Shown: positions 2,673 through 47,424 of the stretch, piece after piece
How positions within the stretch are numbered: the stretch's first letter is position 1
Layout of the letters: each line of letters begins with the position of its first letter
DNA from: Porphyromonadaceae bacterium
GTDB lineage: Bacteria; Bacteroidota; Bacteroidia; Bacteroidales; UBA12481
Assembly (NCBI GenBank): GCA_007280905.1
Contig: QYQM01000144.1
Coordinates: 1-47,424, forward strand
Length of the DNA: 47,424 bases
Reading direction: 5' to 3'
The notes under the pieces: model-generated
Seen by the model: the letters and a program-made list of their open reading frames with translations, nothing else
Databases searched by the model: none
Told to the model about the DNA's origin: nothing
Program-made: the position numbers and the translations under genes

Positions 2673-3944
2673 ATGAATATTGTAAATCTGGTCTCATTGG
2701 GATTGTTATTACCCATGGTAGCGTTGAATGTCAGTGGGCAGGTGGTTACGAGCACTGATAATCCAAGAGATTTAGCGATCCGGGTTTTTATGGATTGCTC
2801 CAGTTGCGACATCGACTATATACGCAGAGAGATACCATACGTAAACTATGTCCGCGATCCCAAAGAATGTGATGTTCATATACTGGTTACAAGACAATCA
2901 ACCGGATCGGGCGGCAGGGAATATCAGATTGCCATGATCGGAAAGAATAAATTCGAAGGCCAGGATGAAAAGGTGGTTTATACCTCATCTCCGGATGAAA
3001 CCAGTGACCTGATCAGGCAGGGCTATACCCGGATAATTGCCTTAGGACTAATGAAATATGTGGCAAACACCCCTCTGGCCAGTCATCTCAATATAAGTTA
3101 TGACCTTAAGGATAGTGCTGAAAACAGCCAGAATATTGTTGAAGATCAATGGAAAAGCTGGGTTTATAATCTGGATTTGCAAGGAGATTTTACCAAGCAG
3201 GAAACGTATTCCAGTTTGCAATTGGAATCCGGTGTCTCTGCTACCAAGATAACTCCGGAATGGAAGGTTGACCTGAATGGTAATTATTATAGTTTCCAAA
3301 GAACTTATATACTGGAAGATACAACAATTTTATCTCACAGGAACGGTGCTACCCTCAGTAACTTAACGGTAAAAAGTATTGGGAACCATTGGTCCATCGG
3401 AGAAAGATCGCATATCTCAACAGACTCATATTCCAATAATCGGTTTAGCTGGTCAATCTACCCGGCGATTGAATATGACTATTTCCCCTATGCCGAGTCA
3501 AACCGCAAACAGCTGATTTTTCAGTACCGGGTCGGATATGGATACAATTATTACCGGGATACCACCCTGTATGATAAAATTGAAGAGGGGCTTTTTCGCC
3601 ATCAATTATTAATAGCCCTGCAGGTTCGTCAGCCATGGGGTAACATATTCGGTTCACTTCAGGGATCGCAATATCTCCATGATTGGTCAAAGAATAGTTT
3701 AAGTTTCGGAGCCGGAATATATCTCAGGATACTCAAAGGATTATCTCTCACAATAGAAGGACAGGCAGCCTTGATCCACGACCAGTTATCGTTGCCCAAA
3801 GCCGGGGCTACCCCTGAAGAGGTCCTGCTGCGTCAGCAGCAGATTGCCTCACAATATGAATTCGATCTCGAATTCGGGCTTCGGTATACCTTCGGATCCA
3901 TTTACAATAATATTGTTAATCCGCGCATGGCAGGCAACGAATAA
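2673..3944 (+). CDS. Hypothetical outer-membrane beta-barrel-type protein
   Basis: A protein of 423 residues with a signal peptide (about 1-22, ending VSGQ). Residues 30-130 form a small alpha/beta region with the cysteine pair FMDCSSCD and the stretch CDVHILVTRQ. From about residue 160 to the end the sequence alternates aromatic and polar residues in short strands (WKVDLNGNYYSFQRTY, FGLRYTFGSIYNN), as expected for a DUF481-like outer-membrane barrel. The function is unknown. It may be in the operon of the two-component system (94 bases after the PepSY-like gene) and could be its target. The stop codon is followed at once by the heptad-repeat hairpin at 3956-4110. Confidence 0.65.
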   Translation: MNIVNLVSLGLLLPMVALNVSGQVVTSTDNPRDLAIRVFMDCSSCDIDYIRREIPYVNYVRDPKECDVHILVTRQSTGSGGREYQIAMIGKNKFEGQDEKVVYTSSPDETSDLIRQGYTRIIALGLMKYVANTPLASHLNISYDLKDSAENSQNIVEDQWKSWVYNLDLQGDFTKQETYSSLQLESGVSATKITPEWKVDLNGNYYSFQRTYILEDTTILSHRNGATLSNLTVKSIGNHWSIGERSHISTDSYSNNRFSWSIYPAIEYDYFPYAESNRKQLIFQYRVGYGYNYYRDTTLYDKIEEGLFRHQLLIALQVRQPWGNIFGSLQGSQYLHDWSKNSLSFGAGIYLRILKGLSLTIEGQAALIHDQLSLPKAGATPEEVLLRQQQIASQYEFDLEFGLRYTFGSIYNNIVNPRMAGNE

Positions 3945-3955
3945 GGCTAAATCGG

Positions 3956-4110
3956 GGCTCAAGGCGCAAGGCGCAAGTAAGTTTAAAGGAGAAAAGAGAT
4001 GGCCAAGGATTTAAGCAGCTTCGGGCTGCGTTTTATTCCTTGATTTGTTTTTTCTTTTTTCATCCTTACTTGCGCCTTGCGCCTTGAACCTTGAGCCTTA
4101 TTTGCGCCTT
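3956..4110. repeat. Heptad-repeat hairpin element, copy A
   Basis: Left arm 3956-3981 is GGCTC plus AAGGCGC units ending AAGTAAG. Right arm 4065-4110 is CTTACTT plus GCGCCTT/GAGCCTT units. The arms are complementary and enclose about 83 bp. Inside are TTTAAAG just after the left arm, then CCAAGGAT, a small GCAGC/GCTGC stem and TCCTTGATTTG, then a pyrimidine-rich run before the right arm. The same internal words recur in copies at 24116-24260 and 45535-45666. It sits between two forward genes and could also act as a transcription terminator. Confidence 0.85.
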
Positions 4111-4162
4111 GTACTGAATTATTTTCCTATATTGGTATCACCAATTCTTCATTTAATTCCGA

Positions 4163-18464: not shown

Positions 18465-18566
18465 ACCACGGAGACACAGAGATCACGGAGTTCCAAGGAG
18501 ATAAGTCTTTAAACATCTTCGCAAATTCTTCTCTGTGTTTCTCTATGTTCTCTGTGTCTCCGTGGT
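18465..18566. repeat. Inverted repeat of the ACCACGGAGACACAGAG type
   Basis: An 18-bp sequence at 18465-18482 is repeated as its perfect reverse complement at 18549-18566, followed by TTTTTTG. The inner part repeats further CACGGAG / CTCTGTGTTTCTCT words. This is a second repeat family, unrelated in sequence to the heptad arrays. Located between GH3 and GH16, it may terminate transcription. Confidence 0.85.
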
Positions 18567-21335: not shown

Positions 21336-21399
21336 TAAATTTTACTTAATTTTGGGATTACATTCCCTAAATTTTACTTAATTTTGGGATTATATTCCC
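21336..21399 (+). promoter_or_regulatory. Two tandem 32-bp repeats upstream of the first DUF4143-type ATPase
   Basis: Positions 21336-21367 and 21368-21399 are the same 32-bp AT-rich sequence with one difference. Each contains TTTTGGGATTA and ends ATTCCC, making a near-palindromic GGGAT...ATTCCC. A further partial copy (AATTTTAGGAT) runs up to the start codon at 21414. The position suggests an operator or promoter array controlling the ATPase. Confidence 0.55.
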
Positions 21400-21413
21400 A
21401 ATTTTAGGATAAA

Positions 21414-23509: not shown

Positions 23510-24118
23510 ATGAAAAAATTTATTCTTATTCTGATGACCTTTCTACCCCTGGCCCTGGCGGCACAGGTGAGTACAACCGGAACCACGGCAACCTCAGTCA
23601 ATCCAACCACCGGACTTGACAGAGCAACCGGTGTTACCTTAATAAACGCAAAAACCGGCTTGACAGAATTATTAAACCGCTATTCCGACAACTTCCGCTA
23701 TAGTTTTTTCGAAGTCAGCGAAGATATGTTTAAGGCTTTCTGCGAGTTGGAATATGCTGATTCAACATCTATTGCCTTGTTTAAAAAGATTAAATCGGTA
23801 AAAATGCTCGAAGTTCAGTACACTCCCGAGGAATTGAAAAAAATGGAAAAGAAAAACGCGGTAACCCCTTATGCTGATTCCTGGTTTTATGACGATATCA
23901 CTAGTGAGTTGGATATTACCGGATACAATCAGCTGCTAAAATCACGCAACAACCATTCCATGGCCCTCTTTCTCAAAAAAGAATTCGGACCGGGCGACAA
24001 TGAATTTCTGCTGATTACTGATAAAATGGTGATTGATATCCGCGGCGATATCATGATCAAAACCATTTACCAGATGGAAGAGATGATGGGGTATGTGCAG
24101 CAGATACTTCCAAACTAA
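23510..24118 (+). CDS. DUF4252 family exported protein
   Basis: A protein of 202 residues with a signal peptide (about 1-19, ending ALAAQ). The mature part fits DUF4252: a region around FKKIKSVKMLEVQYT and a C-terminal half with ALFLKKEFGPGDNEFLLITDKMVIDIRGD. The gene is 5 bases after the anti-sigma gene and is clearly in the same operon. Its role is unknown; family members commonly accompany an ECF sigma and anti-sigma pair, suggesting an envelope-stress function. Its TAA stop is the first three bases of the heptad element (TAAGGCTC), so the repeat supplies the stop codon and may have trimmed the original C-terminus. Confidence 0.82.
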   Translation: MKKFILILMTFLPLALAAQVSTTGTTATSVNPTTGLDRATGVTLINAKTGLTELLNRYSDNFRYSFFEVSEDMFKAFCELEYADSTSIALFKKIKSVKMLEVQYTPEELKKMEKKNAVTPYADSWFYDDITSELDITGYNQLLKSRNNHSMALFLKKEFGPGDNEFLLITDKMVIDIRGDIMIKTIYQMEEMMGYVQQILPN

Positions 24119-24260
24119 GGCTCAAGTAAGGGACAAGGCTCAAGGCTCAAGTAAGTTTAAAGAAATAAAGGTAAAACCAAGGATAAACGTCCGGTGAACT
24201 GACCACACTTCAATCCTTGATTTGACTTGATTCTACTTCTTCATACTTACTTGAGCCTTA
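24116..24260. repeat. Heptad-repeat hairpin element, copy B
   Basis: Left arm 24116-24155 is TAAGGCTCAAGTAAG plus further AAGGCTC units. Right arm 24245-24260 is ACTTACTTGAGCCTTA. The inside repeats the words seen in copy A: AAGTAAGTTTAAAG, CCAAGGAT, then TCCTTGATTTG. The centre differs completely, with a CCGG-containing stretch instead of the GCAGC stem. Both ends give stop codons to the flanking genes: TAA for the DUF4252 gene on the left, and TAA on the minus strand for the peptidase fragment on the right. Confidence 0.87.
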
Positions 24261-24443
24261 TTCCACCGGCTGGGTGAATTTAATCTCATACGCTTCGGAA
24301 TATTGCTGACCGTGACGGGTGGGGCCAACTATTTCAATTCCAGGGAGTTTCTTCAGTGCTTTTAACAGAACTGAATCCTGGGCAATGGCATTTCCTGCCA
24401 GTAACAAAAGCAGGAGCAACAAACTAACAGTAAGCTTTTTCAT
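24258..24443 (-). pseudogene. 5' remnant of an S37-type (PS-10) aminopeptidase gene, truncated at the repeat element
   Basis: From ATG 24443 on the minus strand, 61 residues are encoded: a signal peptide (MKKLTVSLLLLLLLLAGNAIAQ) and then DSVLLKALKKLPGIEIVGP ... EAYEIKFTQPVE. This is the N-terminal part typical of secreted PS-10/S37 tripeptidyl-type aminopeptidases, normally over 400 residues. Coding stops at the edge of the heptad element, whose TAA (24258-24260) is the stop. The rest of the gene is not found in the window. A promoter still stands upstream, so a short secreted peptide may be made. The family call is moderate because so little remains. Confidence 0.6.
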
Positions 24444-27852: not shown

Positions 27853-27950
27853 AGAGGCCTGAAGACCATCAGCAATTTCTGGAGTTTTTAGATTCGTTGA
27901 ATGAGAATGATAATCCGGTCATCATGATCACTTACATGAAAAAAAGATAA
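27853..27950 (+). other. Orphaned C-terminal coding tail of the preceding propeller gene
   Basis: In the shifted frame after the A8 tract the sequence reads KRPEDHQQFLEFLDSLNENDNPVIMITYMKKR and then TAA at 27948-27950 (quoted here in pieces: EFLDSLNENDNP, VIMITYMKKR). It matches the ends of both sister proteins (SQEDNLVLFVYYLKKS and SSENDNPILRIMHL), so it is the missing C-terminus. Confidence 0.75.
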
Positions 27951-27952
27951 AA

Positions 27953-27975
27953 ACCGACAACCGACAACTGACAAC
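27953..27975. repeat. Short ACCGACAAC-type repeat
   Basis: ACCGACAACCGACAACTGACAAC follows the frameshifted propeller tail by 2 bases (two 9-base units plus part). The same unit is found at 30636-30706 and, reversed, at 39734-39750 after another stop codon. It is a third dispersed repeat family, placed at gene 3' ends. Confidence 0.7.
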
Positions 27976-30619: not shown

Positions 30620-30635
30620 GCACTGGCAAAATAAC

Positions 30636-30706
30636 TGATAACTGATAACCGACAACCCATAACCATCATAACCATCACAACCCCCATAACCGACAACCGA
30701 CAACCA
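30636..30706. repeat. Low-complexity ACTGATA / ACCGACA / ACCATCA repeat tract
   Basis: About 70 bases made of short related words: AACTGATAACTGATAACC, then CCATAACCATCATAACCATC, then ATAACCGACAACCGACAACC. It belongs with the ACCGACAAC repeats at 27953 and 39734, and resembles the CAACCA-rich start of the signal peptide at 29331. Confidence 0.65.
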
Positions 30707-36262: not shown

Positions 36263-37840
36263 TTAGCCAATCGTCTGCACCGCCCGGTCAATCCTGGCGA
36301 TCACCTCTTTTGGTCCCAGCAGCGCCATGATATCAAACACCCCCGGTCCCACCGATGAGCCCACGAGGCACAAACGCAGGATGTTCATCACGTTGCCCAT
36401 GTTCAGGCTGTTGGCGACTATGTGTCCCTTAATGAGCGTCTCGAACTCACCAAGGCTCAAGGCGCAAGGCGCAAGGCTCAAGTAAGGTAAAAGGAGAGAA
36501 GTAATATCCTTAAGGATCAGGGGCATTTCGGGGGACCATCGTTTCTTGATGACAGCCTCATCGTATGTTGTTGGCGCTTCGAAAAAGAACCATGCCTGGC
36601 TCCATATATCTTTCACAAACTCAGCCCGCTCCTTAACCAACGAAATGATTTTTACAATCCTGTTCCACTCCACCTCTTCCACTTGGTCCCTGAGCCTTGA
36701 GCCTTGAGCCTTTACCTGAGCCTTGAGCCTTGAGCCTTGAGCCTTGATAAATTCCTCCGCGATTTCCTCATTGCTCTTAAGTAACATATACTGATGATTG
36801 AACCACTTTGCCTTTTCGGGATCGAACCTCGAGCCGGATTTGCCAACGCGTTCCAGACTGAAAGCCTGAATCAGTTCATCCGTGGTATAGATCTCTTTAT
36901 CGGTGCCATCGTTCCAACCCAGGAGGGCCAGGATATTGACGAAGGCTTCCCGGAAATAGCCGGCTTCACGATAGCCACTGTATATTTCATTGGTTTCGGG
37001 ATTATTCCAATTGATCGGGAAAACCGGGAACCCGAGCTTGTCGCCATCGCGCTTGCTCAGCTTTCCGTTGCCGTTCGGTTTAAGAATCAGCGGCAGATGC
37101 GCGAACTGAGGCATGGTATCGGTCCAGCCAAAAGCCTTATACAGCATCACATGCAGCGGCAGCGACGGCAGCCACTCCTCACCCCGGATCACATGCGAGA
37201 TCTCCATCAGGTGATCATCCACCACATTAGCCAGGTGATAGGTAGGCATCCTATCGGATTTAAATAAAACCTTATCATCGAGGGTAGCCGTGTTTACACG
37301 AACCTCTCCCCTGATAATGTCCTGCATCACGATCTCATGATTCTCCGGCATCCTGAACCGGACGACAAAATGCACTCCGGAATGGAGCAATCGTTTAACC
37401 TCATCGGGAGCTAACGTCAGGGAATTTCTGAGCGACTTCCGGGTTTGGGTATCATAAGAAAAGGTCTCCTTGCGGCTCTCGTACTCTTTCCTGATCGCAT
37501 CCAGATCCTCGGAAGAATCGAATGAATAATAGGCCCAGCCACTCTCCAGCAGCTGATCGGCATACTGTTTATAGATCAGTTTCCGGTCGGATTGCCGATA
37601 GGGTCCAAATTTTCCACCCTCCTTAATCCCCTCATCGATCTGTATGCCGCACCATTCCAGCGATTCCATAATGTACTCCTCAGCGCCCGGAACAAACCGG
37701 CCCTGATCGGTGTCCTCGATCCTTAGGATCATGGTTCCCTGATGTTTACGGGCAAAAAGATAATTAAATAATGCTGTTCGAACCCCACCCATATGGAGGG
37801 GGCCAGTGGGGGAAGGAGCAAAGCGCACGCGGACTGACAT
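36263..37840 (-). CDS. gltX: Glutamyl-tRNA synthetase with in-frame repeat insertions
   Basis: Class I synthetase charging tRNA-Glu. I start at ATG 37840 (525 residues, MSVRVRFAPSPTGPLHMGG); an upstream in-frame ATG at 37915 lies in the heptad array. The HIGH-like motif is in SPTGPLHMGGVRTALFNYLFA, and the KMSKS-like loop is KLSKRDGDKLG. The anticodon-binding half (about 370-520) carries two segments coded by heptad repeats: KAQGSRLKAQVKAQGSRLRD (nucleotides 36691-36747) and PYLSLAPCALSLG (36452-36486). Flanking sequence on both sides is normal GltX, so the insertions are in frame and apparently tolerated. Leader sequence reads ATCTTTGC, a possible -7 region. Confidence 0.95.
   Translation of the reverse strand: MSVRVRFAPSPTGPLHMGGVRTALFNYLFARKHQGTMILRIEDTDQGRFVPGAEEYIMESLEWCGIQIDEGIKEGGKFGPYRQSDRKLIYKQYADQLLESGWAYYSFDSSEDLDAIRKEYESRKETFSYDTQTRKSLRNSLTLAPDEVKRLLHSGVHFVVRFRMPENHEIVMQDIIRGEVRVNTATLDDKVLFKSDRMPTYHLANVVDDHLMEISHVIRGEEWLPSLPLHVMLYKAFGWTDTMPQFAHLPLILKPNGNGKLSKRDGDKLGFPVFPINWNNPETNEIYSGYREAGYFREAFVNILALLGWNDGTDKEIYTTDELIQAFSLERVGKSGSRFDPEKAKWFNHQYMLLKSNEEIAEEFIKAQGSRLKAQVKAQGSRLRDQVEEVEWNRIVKIISLVKERAEFVKDIWSQAWFFFEAPTTYDEAVIKKRWSPEMPLILKDITSLLLPYLSLAPCALSLGEFETLIKGHIVANSLNMGNVMNILRLCLVGSSVGPGVFDIMALLGPKEVIARIDRAVQTIG
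36452..36486. repeat. Heptad array inside gltX, arm 1
   Basis: Five 7-bp units on the plus strand: AAGGCTC, AAGGCGC twice, AAGGCTC and AAGTAAG. They encode part of the GltX anticodon-binding domain (read on the minus strand as LSLAPCALSLG). The 36 bases keep frame. The array faces the opposite-sense array at 36691-36747. Confidence 0.9.
36691..36747. repeat. Heptad array inside gltX, arm 2
   Basis: 57 bases of GAGCCTT-type units on the plus strand (TGAGCCTTGAGCCTTGAGCC ... then TTTACC ... then more units), 19 codons long. On the coding strand three 7-bp units spell the heptapeptide KAQGSRL, seen twice. It lies 204 bases from arm 1 and is complementary to it, so the gltX mRNA could fold the two together. 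Confidence 0.9.
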
Positions 37841-37874: not shown

Positions 37875-38040
37875 AAGGCGCAAGGCGCAAGGCGCAAGTA
37901 AGGCGCAAGGCGCAAGGCGCAAGGCTCAAGTAAGGCTCAAGGCGCAAGGCGCAAGGCTCAAGTAAGGCTCAAGGCGCAAGGCTCAAGTAAGGCTCAAGGC
38001 ACAAGGCGCAAGGCGCAAGGCGCAAGGCGCAAGGTTCAAG
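37875..38040. repeat. Large heptad array upstream of the four-helix-bundle gene
   Basis: 166 bp of AAGGCGC/AAGGCTC units (one AAGGCAC, one AAGGTTC) divided by the tetramer AAGT into blocks of 3, 4, 4, 3 and 7 units; block lengths 25, 32, 32, 25 and 52 add up exactly. It is also the 5' flank of gltX on the other strand. With the opposite array at 38482-38550 it encloses the four-helix-bundle gene. Confidence 0.93.
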
Positions 38041-38071
38041 GGAAAGAAGAAGTTGAAAAGGAGAAAAAAAG

Positions 38072-38105
38072 TTTGGTGAATTTTTCCAAAAGGGTTGGAT
38101 TTTTG
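38072..38105 (+). promoter_or_regulatory. Candidate promoter of the four-helix-bundle gene
   Basis: TTTG at 38072-38075, a 22-base spacer and GATTTTTG at 38098-38105 (one mismatch to TAnnTTTG) end 14 bases before the ATG at 38120, inside the enclosed segment. The gene may therefore carry its own promoter within the element. Confidence 0.35.
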
Positions 38106-38119
38106 CATCTATATCCAAA

Positions 38120-38470
38120 ATGATTATTATGAATGACTTACACAAAAGGTTGAAAAAATTCGCTGTTGAGGTTTACCGTTTGACCCTAAAATTTCGGAAA
38201 GATCCTTTATTGACCGACAATATTAATCAATTGATCCGATCATCTGCTTCACCAGGAGCTAATTACGGAGAAGCACAATCAGCTTCCTCAACAAAGGATT
38301 TTAATTACAAAATCCGCCTTTGTCTCAAAGAAATGAGAGAATCCCACTATTGGCTTCACTATTTCCATGAGATTTTCCCCGAATTAAAGGAAACTGACTC
38401 ACTGATTCAGGAAACTGAGGAGCTATGCAAAATACTCTCATCCATCGCTTTCAAAACTCAGAACCGCTGA
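38120..38470 (+). CDS. Four-helix-bundle protein (S23 / 23S-rRNA intervening-sequence type)
   Basis: A protein of 116 residues (ATG 38120; ATG 38129 gives 113). Four amphipathic helices are visible: LHKRLKKFAVEVYRLTLKF, LTDNINQLIRSSASPGANYGEAQ, FNYKIRLCLKEMRESHYWLHYF and the C-terminal SLIQETEELCKILSSIAFKT. The conserved motif QLIRSSASPGANYGEAQSA marks the family, which includes ORFs of 23S rRNA intervening sequences and the Avd accessory protein of diversity-generating retroelements. No reverse transcriptase is nearby. It sits between facing heptad arrays, like the ORF in an rRNA intervening sequence between its stem arms. Biochemical role unknown; nucleic-acid binding is likely. Confidence 0.9.
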   Translation: MIIMNDLHKRLKKFAVEVYRLTLKFRKDPLLTDNINQLIRSSASPGANYGEAQSASSTKDFNYKIRLCLKEMRESHYWLHYFHEIFPELKETDSLIQETEELCKILSSIAFKTQNR

Positions 38471-38481
38471 ATCCCACCCCC

Positions 38482-38550
38482 TACTTATGCCTTATTCCTT
38501 ACTTGAGCCTTATTCCTTACTTGAGCCTTGAGCCTTGAGCCTTGAGCCTT
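38482..38550. repeat. Heptad array downstream of the four-helix-bundle gene
   Basis: ACTTATGCCTTATTCCTTAC, then TTGAGCCTTATTCCTTAC, then four GAGCCTT units. It is the inverse of the array at 37875-38040 and starts 11 bases after the gene's stop codon. It ends 5 bases before the 3' end of the convergent acyltransferase gene. Confidence 0.9.
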
Positions 38551-38555
38551 TTATA

Positions 38556-45534: not shown

Positions 45535-45666
45535 AAGGCGTAAGGCTCAAGGCTCAAGGCGCAAGTAAGTTTAAAGAAATAATAAGGAAACCCAAAGGAT
45601 TAAGAGGAGCTACTACCCTTCAACCTTTTTCCTTATTACGCCTTGAGCCTTTAGCCTTGTGCCTTT
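45535..45666. repeat. Heptad-repeat hairpin element, copy C
   Basis: Left arm 45535-45568 (AAGGCG, TAAGGCTCAAGGCTC, AAGGCGCAAGTAAG), right arm 45631-45666 (CCTTATTACGCCTTGAGCC and degenerate units). Inside, AAGTAAGTTTAAAGAAATAA and CCCAAAGGATTAAG match copies A and B. It lies immediately after the stop codon of the synthase gene. Confidence 0.85.
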
Positions 45667-47283: not shown

Positions 47284-47396
47284 TACTTGCGCCTTGAGCC
47301 TTACTTGCGCCTTGAGCCTTGAGCCTTGAGCCTTGAGCCTTGAGCCTTGAGCCTTGAGCCTTGAGCCTTGAGCCTTGAGCCTTGAGCCTTGAGCCT
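47284..47396. repeat. Long heptad array at the window end
   Basis: 113 bp of GAGCCTT units (with GCGCCTT and ACTT at the left, 47284-47310), the GCCTTGA orientation. It holds about a dozen near-identical tandem units, the most homogeneous of the window. The facing arm is not seen within the window, so it may lie beyond the edge, or this is a solitary array. The remaining bases to 47424 show nothing else. Confidence 0.92.
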
Positions 47397-47424
47397 TTAT
47401 TTATATATTAGCCTCATGATATAC

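Follow-up and report, generated by a model that had tools for sequence, protein, structure and literature searches.

An S23 four-helix-bundle gene between facing heptad arrays and its place in a probable class of mobile elements

Homing endonuclease genes are small genes that travel with their own insertion, and MITEs and REPIN/RAYT systems combine gene-less inverted pairs with rarer gene-bearing copies. The intervening sequence (IVS) in the 23S rRNA of Coxiella is 428 nt long, carries an S23 open reading frame (ORF), three GACAGAT heptads (their number varies) and terminal inverted repeats, and is cut by RNase III (PMC4990558). The same source notes that rRNA IVS have been known for more than 25 years without their function or origin becoming clear, mobility being only a hypothesis, and another study places 23S_rRNA_IVP in rRNA insertions of CPR bacteria (PMC11270868). 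Heptads are also described as arrays: for TAACTGA, the mechanism of spread is given as unknown (PMC4679880), and two xanthomonads are reported to contain 70 and 75 heptad pairs in convergent orientation (PMC4692102). The solved S23 protein XCC0516 comes from one of the two, X. campestris. No link between PF05635 genes outside rRNA and facing repeat arrays was found in a literature search, most subscription journals lying outside it.

The window, i.e., the whole stretch of 47,424 nucleotides analysed here, is contig C97 of the source genome (G000; 4.39 Mb, 185 contigs). From arm to arm, its gene-bearing element spans 37875–38550 on the forward strand, the right limit being supported by a second copy (contig C107), whose similarity ends at the right array. 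The left arm (37875 to approximately 38041, + strand) is a 166-bp AAGGCKC heptad array, which TRF reports with period 7, 24.6 copies and score 159 and also as a 32-nt unit with score 223. It is followed by a four-helix-bundle gene of the S23/IVP type (38120–38470, + strand, 116 aa), matching PF05635 in Pfam (E = 7.3e-13; 49.1 bits, cut-off 33.8) and the “four helix bundle protein” TIGR02436 in NCBIfam (72 bits, cut-off 24); a later ATG (38129) is common to the C107 copy. The stop ends at 38470, and 11 bases on begin degenerate TTATTCC units, followed by a clean inverted GMGCCTT array to 38550; this right arm is annotated at 38484–38550 on the − strand. The best inverted pairing of the arms joins 37932–37998 with 38484–38550 (67 nt, 79%). 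TRF, Pfam/NCBIfam and inverted-repeat pairing agree with the first-pass annotation, which had described an AAGGCKC array, an S23-type gene and an inverted array 11 bases past its stop.

The S23 ORF is the sole gene of the element. Since it matches only PF05635 and TIGR02436, no transposase is seen in the element by Pfam and NCBIfam, nor do these databases recognise any nuclease, recombinase or transposase domain in the S23 protein. Neither a Y1 transposase (PF01797) nor a reverse transcriptase (RVT_1) was found on C97, and each has three matches elsewhere in the source genome. Rfam has no match anywhere in the window, PADLOC defence annotation has none for three S23 proteins, and a search of 50,697 phage records with one S23 protein gave none at E 1e-3.

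We use the term S23 element for one PF05635 gene between facing tandem-repeat arms. Like MITEs and REPIN/RAYT, such elements comprise gene-less inverted pairs alongside rarer gene-bearing copies, but their tandem-repeat arms differ by locus and they contain no Y1 transposase. Of the traits of DNA transposons and MITEs, inverted termini are present, whereas the evidence for a target-site duplication is mixed: 5-bp direct repeats occur at two of the seven sites compared below, the window copy not being among the seven, and both belong to one subfamily. As in homing endonuclease genes, a small gene travels with the insertion, but it has no nuclease domain and several target sites. The first-pass annotation had likened the locus to 23S rRNA IVS, and this likeness is borne out: the IVS of Coxiella, and of Leptospira as cited there (PMC4990558), have an S23 ORF as their only gene, terminal inverted repeats, variable heptads before the ORF and a length of about 0.4 kb, and the window element has the same inverted termini and heptads before its ORF. 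Unlike those IVS, it sits between gltX and another protein gene and not inside an rRNA gene, its tandem arms are often longer and gene-less copies are dispersed. None of four short 16S/23S signatures was found with up to two mismatches in the loci then examined, a search that partial rRNA genes could escape. We therefore do not regard the window element as an rRNA IVS, since it is similar in build but outside rRNA.

Published heptanucleotide repeats (TAACTGA, cyanobacterial STRR, GGGAATC/GGGGAYT) resemble the arms in being 7-nt tandem, dispersed and mostly intergenic and in occurring in Cyanobacteria and Bacteroidota (PMC4679880); in contrast to the arms, no S23 gene or mobile unit is tied to them in the available parts of PMC4679880 and PMC4692102. 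S23 also bears a family resemblance to Avd of diversity-generating retroelements, as stated in PMC10053308, whereas the window differs from these retroelements in lacking a reverse transcriptase on its contig.

Facing arms were scored by aligning the 300 bp upstream of a gene with the reverse complement of the 300 bp downstream, with cut-offs at the 99th percentile of mismatched flanks: 34 for the source and related genomes (5046 pairs) and 30 for a wider set (5931 pairs). Five of the seven PF05635 genes of the source genome have facing arms by this score, built from AAGGCKC (two genes), GTGTGGGTTTGGGT, ATATGCTAAT and AATTTAGAGTTCCG; L001, with repeat TTTCAGAGT, scores 27 and was counted by eye as the sixth, and the seventh (L004) scores 18 and has no facing arms. 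In the source and related genomes together, scores above 34 were obtained for 44 of 77 PF05635 loci and for 2 of 142 ORFs next to them, of which the higher-scoring one is a PF13366 nuclease gene. A further 22 loci, most with weaker matches, add 12 above the cut-off (56/99 in total); these 99 derive from 125 matches, 100 of which were taken, one having no downstream flank, and the 25 left outside arm scoring are mostly weak or partial. The wider set covers about a dozen phyla or more, including Bacteroidota, Patescibacteria, Omnitrophota, Acidobacteriota and Planctomycetota (labels assigned from record titles), and there 38 of 80 loci exceed 30 versus 12 of 246 neighbours; nine of these 12 were sent to Pfam, and the five shorter than 130 aa were all PF05635 themselves. 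At least 583 contig relatives matched, of which the best 80 were kept, and the choice of the 80 wider-set loci by a tight conserved pattern biases them to typical S23. Fisher tests give p = 1e-22 (relatives) and 3e-17 (wider set), values that are only guides because the loci are related. The arms of 43 of the 99 and 42 of the 80 loci do not pass; the failures include some typical S23 genes (e.g., L038 at 18) as well as two of the seven in the source genome. For cyanobacterial plasmids, 32 records matched, 13 were taken around the S23 match and 12 were scored; seven are above 34, including the near-duplicate pair L147/L148, and the arms of L312 were judged by eye.

The first-pass annotation had tied the gene to AAGGCKC arrays and suggested looking for such arrays in the flanks of related genes. 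Facing arrays are indeed strongly enriched on both sides of PF05635 genes, but AAGGCKC itself is not the common factor: other repeats are found at most of the PF05635 loci examined, which rules out an AAGGCKC-specific link and places the link at the level of the gene family and not of one repeat. Nor, as far as two-sided framing goes, are arrays equally common beside other genes, an outcome that had been named as a refutation: period-7 arrays frame 16 of 96 S23 genes on both sides versus 1 of 131 neighbours in the relatives, and in the wider set 6 of 77 versus 2 of 224. When an array on one side is enough, the figures are 31/96 versus 17/131 and 16/77 versus 19/224; one-sided heptad arrays beside other genes are thus fairly common, as expected from scattered gene-less copies. 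PF13366 (GxxExxY) genes are also framed. Their matches number 53, of which 27 were taken and 26 scored; 17 are above 34 and only nine above the 99th percentile of their own mismatched flanks (53), a higher cut-off because PF13366 arms share themes. Framed PF13366/GxxExxY nuclease genes include L087:7485-7856, L112, L116, L117 and L127.

The arms have a recognisable grammar. Of the 76 armed loci scoring above 34, 47 have a best period of 7 or 14 nt (24/44 in relatives, 16/25 in contigs and 7/7 in cyanobacterial plasmids, the last figure containing one near-duplicate pair), and G exceeds C in the 5′ arm of 68 (39 in relatives, 22 in contigs, 7 in plasmids). The median arm is 40 nt (quartiles 31.5–60, 75 loci). 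PF13366 arms have a best period of 8–10 in 14 of 17 cases and never 7. Arm sequence tracks the protein over short distances only: the arms have a mean similarity of 0.54 in seven pairs with at least 70% protein identity versus 0.14 in 617 pairs below 30%, and for two 90%-identical S23 proteins of G001 the arms differ (similarity 0.36).

Comparisons of filled with unfilled insertion sites came from cyanobacterial plasmids, at seven sites, six of which have plain empty counterparts; the records compared were 1 of 2, 1 of 17, 4 of 48, 4 of 44, 5 of 19 and 1 of 25 listed. At the first site, the element is present in Trichormus (L144) and Scytonema (L302) and absent in Microchaete (L299) and Nostoc linckia (L300), which are 98.5% and 99.0% identical to L144 and lack exactly 428 bp; the insertion is bordered by the direct repeat GTAAT, single in the empty site. 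L302 has the same insertion as L144 with a left arm 14 bp (two units) shorter. Twelve records cover at least 80% of this stretch, three with the gene and nine with no such gene listed; three of the nine were read, two being empty and one (L301) holding a decayed remnant. At the second site, Nostoc L142 and L310 are filled versus five records without the insert. The direct repeat TTCTA is exact in L310 and has one change in L142, and the empty records have TTCTA (three) or TTTTA (two), with a difference in the adjoining base too. The third site is in L141, where an operon as in L142/L310 has another S23 element at the next gene junction, with about 36 bases of other DNA after the right arm. Nostoc edaphicum (L138) is filled between nrdB and nrdA versus Calothrix L250 (85% identical) at the fourth site, and Calothrix L147 is filled in an integrase operon versus L303–L306 at the fifth; in both, the filled copies lack a few bases of the empty site. 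The sixth lies between cas10 and cmr3, filled in Picosynechococcus PCC 7003 (L312) versus 7002 (89%), and the seventh between cas6 and cas4, in Anabaena 90 (L140) versus a 99%-identical Dolichospermum plasmid.

No clean direct repeat was found in Calothrix L147, Picosynechococcus L312, N. edaphicum L138 or at the second site of L141, and none is readable for Anabaena L140, as the relative holds another repeat there. The 5-bp direct repeats are thus seen at two of seven sites, both in one subfamily, the other five showing small losses, filler or no clean duplication. The insertions seen sit at gene boundaries. Because no arms are left at plain empty sites, the arms arrive or leave with the gene: S23 gene and arms come and go together as one unit, which is what the strain comparison suggested in the first-pass annotation could reveal. 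No movement has been observed in the laboratory, and the manner in which the element would move is inferred. As separate observations, the Dolichospermum record (L249) has, at about 1305–1560, a different palindromic repeat (GTAGGTTGGGTT...AACCCAACCTAC) instead of the S23 element, and three cyanobacterial plasmids (L137, L140, L312) carry an S23 gene within a CRISPR-Cas operon, twice at cas6/cas4 of type I-D and once at cas10/cmr3 of type III-B.

The second copy in the source genome encodes a protein 92% identical to that of the window. Its similarity covers only 37989–38553 of the window, the left limit being the end of C107. C107 shares its downstream flank with G006:C503 and the window copy does not, which puts the window copy at a second site. 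The orthologous site of the sister species G007 holds a short gene-less facing array pair, where the gene was either lost or never came; some armed elements are passed on vertically, at one and the same site in different species. Between the window and C107 copies, dS is 0.61 and dN 0.04 (dN/dS 0.07); therefore the duplication is not a recent one, and selection acts on the protein. Among the best 30 S23 pairs, dN/dS is 0.05–0.17 in 17 and 12 are saturated; for L302/L144, which are 98% identical, the value is 0.86 and rests on very few changes. The S23 protein is thus under purifying selection. Arm-less homologues in close relatives, which would have spoken against the link, occur in part: G005:C447 holds a 75%-identical S23 gene that has no arms, in a genome with only three AAGGCKC 14-mers versus 315 in the source genome. 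Such arrays are also abundant in G006 (212), which has AAGGCKC-armed S23 genes as the source genome does. Arrays also occur in G001 (57), G009 (41), G007 (26), G011 (17) and G004 (13), with no AAGGCKC-armed S23 gene at the loci looked at in these five; the arms of G009:C276 (AAGGCTTGAGGCTT) are similar to AAGGCKC.

The arrays are not due to chance, since AAGGCKCAAGGCKC occurs 315 times in the 4.39-Mb genome versus 2 for a reversed control pattern. Within the window, gene-less facing-array elements lie at 3942–4111 (arrays + 3961–3974 and − 4072–4110, an inverted pair) and 45535–45666 (+ 45542–45562, − 45645–45665); at 24116–24264, a left array (+ 24117–24148) is followed by a degenerate right half, with a weak copy at 24239–24264. 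Of the gene-less same-arm elements listed in the first-pass annotation, those near 3956 and 45535 are therefore facing pairs, and 24116 has only a weak right half. Absent from that list were a facing pair at 36451–36747 (+ 36452–36479, − 36692–36745), in frame inside the gltX coding sequence as seen in translation, and a one-sided array on the − strand at 47286–47397 (TRF 16.4 copies), 27 bases from the contig end. In-frame facing AAGGCKC arrays occupy two inter-domain spots of gltX in the source genome, G006 (C596) and G007 (C74); gltX of G004 (C126) seemingly has other repeat-like inserts at the same two spots, and that of G005 has none. The window holds further short-repeat arrays of the AACCGAC/TGATAAC kind (27940–27975 and 30628–30704), a TTCTCTGTGT repeat like the arms of GxxExxY elements (18529–18557) and a 32-bp unit in 2.3 tandem copies (21336–21406). 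Several S23 genes or arrays lie at contig ends (G001:C505, G001:C578, G001:C733, G005:C748, G000:C107), so the elements are probably more numerous than short-read assemblies show.

Among the first 100 listed sites (27 arrays), neighbouring arrays less than 700 bp apart are facing in all six cases and never back to back, and these six gene-less facing pairs outnumber the two gene-bearing ones found genome-wide. This excess is what one would see if the arrays were independent REP/MITE-like or slippage repeats that act as insertion hot spots and the S23 genes captured passengers, and the arrays without a gene at the window's site in G007, the pairs inside gltX and the likewise framed PF13366 genes fit as well. 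We consider this reading unlikely nonetheless: the plain empty plasmid sites hold no arms, two-sided framing is enriched at S23 genes and arms track the protein among close relatives.

The comparisons establish that two-sided framing is enriched, that gene and arms are present or absent jointly, that purifying selection acts on the protein and that the source genome holds a second copy. In our judgement, it is probable that S23 elements are a widespread mobile class, each with one PF05635 gene, which is the sole ORF of the window's element, between facing tandem-repeat arms. Both the framing and the joint presence and absence support the earlier idea of an IVS-like mobile element in which the gene belongs to the arrays. 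An S23 element would measure about 0.4–0.9 kb, with arms mostly of 7-nt period and a G-rich 5′ arm, and gene and arms would be inserted together, which in the observed cases happened at gene boundaries; the 5-bp direct repeats of one cyanobacterial subfamily suggest a staggered cut. Gene-less facing pairs may be copies whose gene was lost or that were mobilised in trans, and 23S rRNA IVS may be rRNA-resident members. We infer, without binding data, that the S23 protein would bind heptad-spaced repeats and mark the element ends; the inference is based on two solved relatives with five chains per entry (2rld, 2gsc), five heptads amounting to about 35 nt, near the median arm. A host or trans-acting enzyme would then cut and join.

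A trans-acting reverse transcriptase is possible for this step because PF05635 resembles Avd (PMC10053308). Going further, S23 could be a reverse-transcriptase accessory like Avd, with elements spreading by retrotransposition; the bAvd family PF22296 matches three homologues, below its cut-off, and the source genome has its three RVT_1 matches. We find this doubtful, as none of them is on the window's contig and no evidence ties reverse transcriptases to armed S23 genes. As to the arms themselves, they pair around the gene in the folded transcript of the window element (z = −6.1). An RNA stem kept by selection is unsupported: in the sense RNA, G-U-keeping mismatches between the arms are the minority (73 vs. 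112; 24 loci with more and 31 with fewer among 75; p = 0.005 if sites were independent), and a DNA-level role is therefore at least as likely. It is highly improbable that the arms act as RNA, as an RNase III stem or regulator site, with S23 a host regulator and the framing a regulatory device: the strong pairing in the folded transcript, the G-rich 5′ arm in gene sense and RNase III cleavage of the Coxiella IVS, as given in PMC4990558, would suit it, but G-U-keeping mismatches are not favoured, and precise presence/absence and 5-bp repeats would remain unexplained.

Returning to S23 elements as mobile units, we offer a broader hypothesis only tentatively, holding it to be possible and no more: they would be a transposon class without a classical transposase of its own, in which a pentameric ring reads the heptad arms and gene-less offspring seed the heptanucleotide repeats of Cyanobacteria, Bacteroidota and other phyla; rRNA IVS would be stranded copies, and GxxExxY (PD-(D/E)XK) elements, with arms of 8–10-nt period, a sister class. 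Heptad-armed S23 elements outside rRNA, present at filled sites and missing from empty ones, are a candidate answer to the question of function and origin of rRNA IVS. They may also be a candidate source of widespread seven-letter repeats, and they would give the common “four helix bundle protein” a role, together with a simple rule for annotation.
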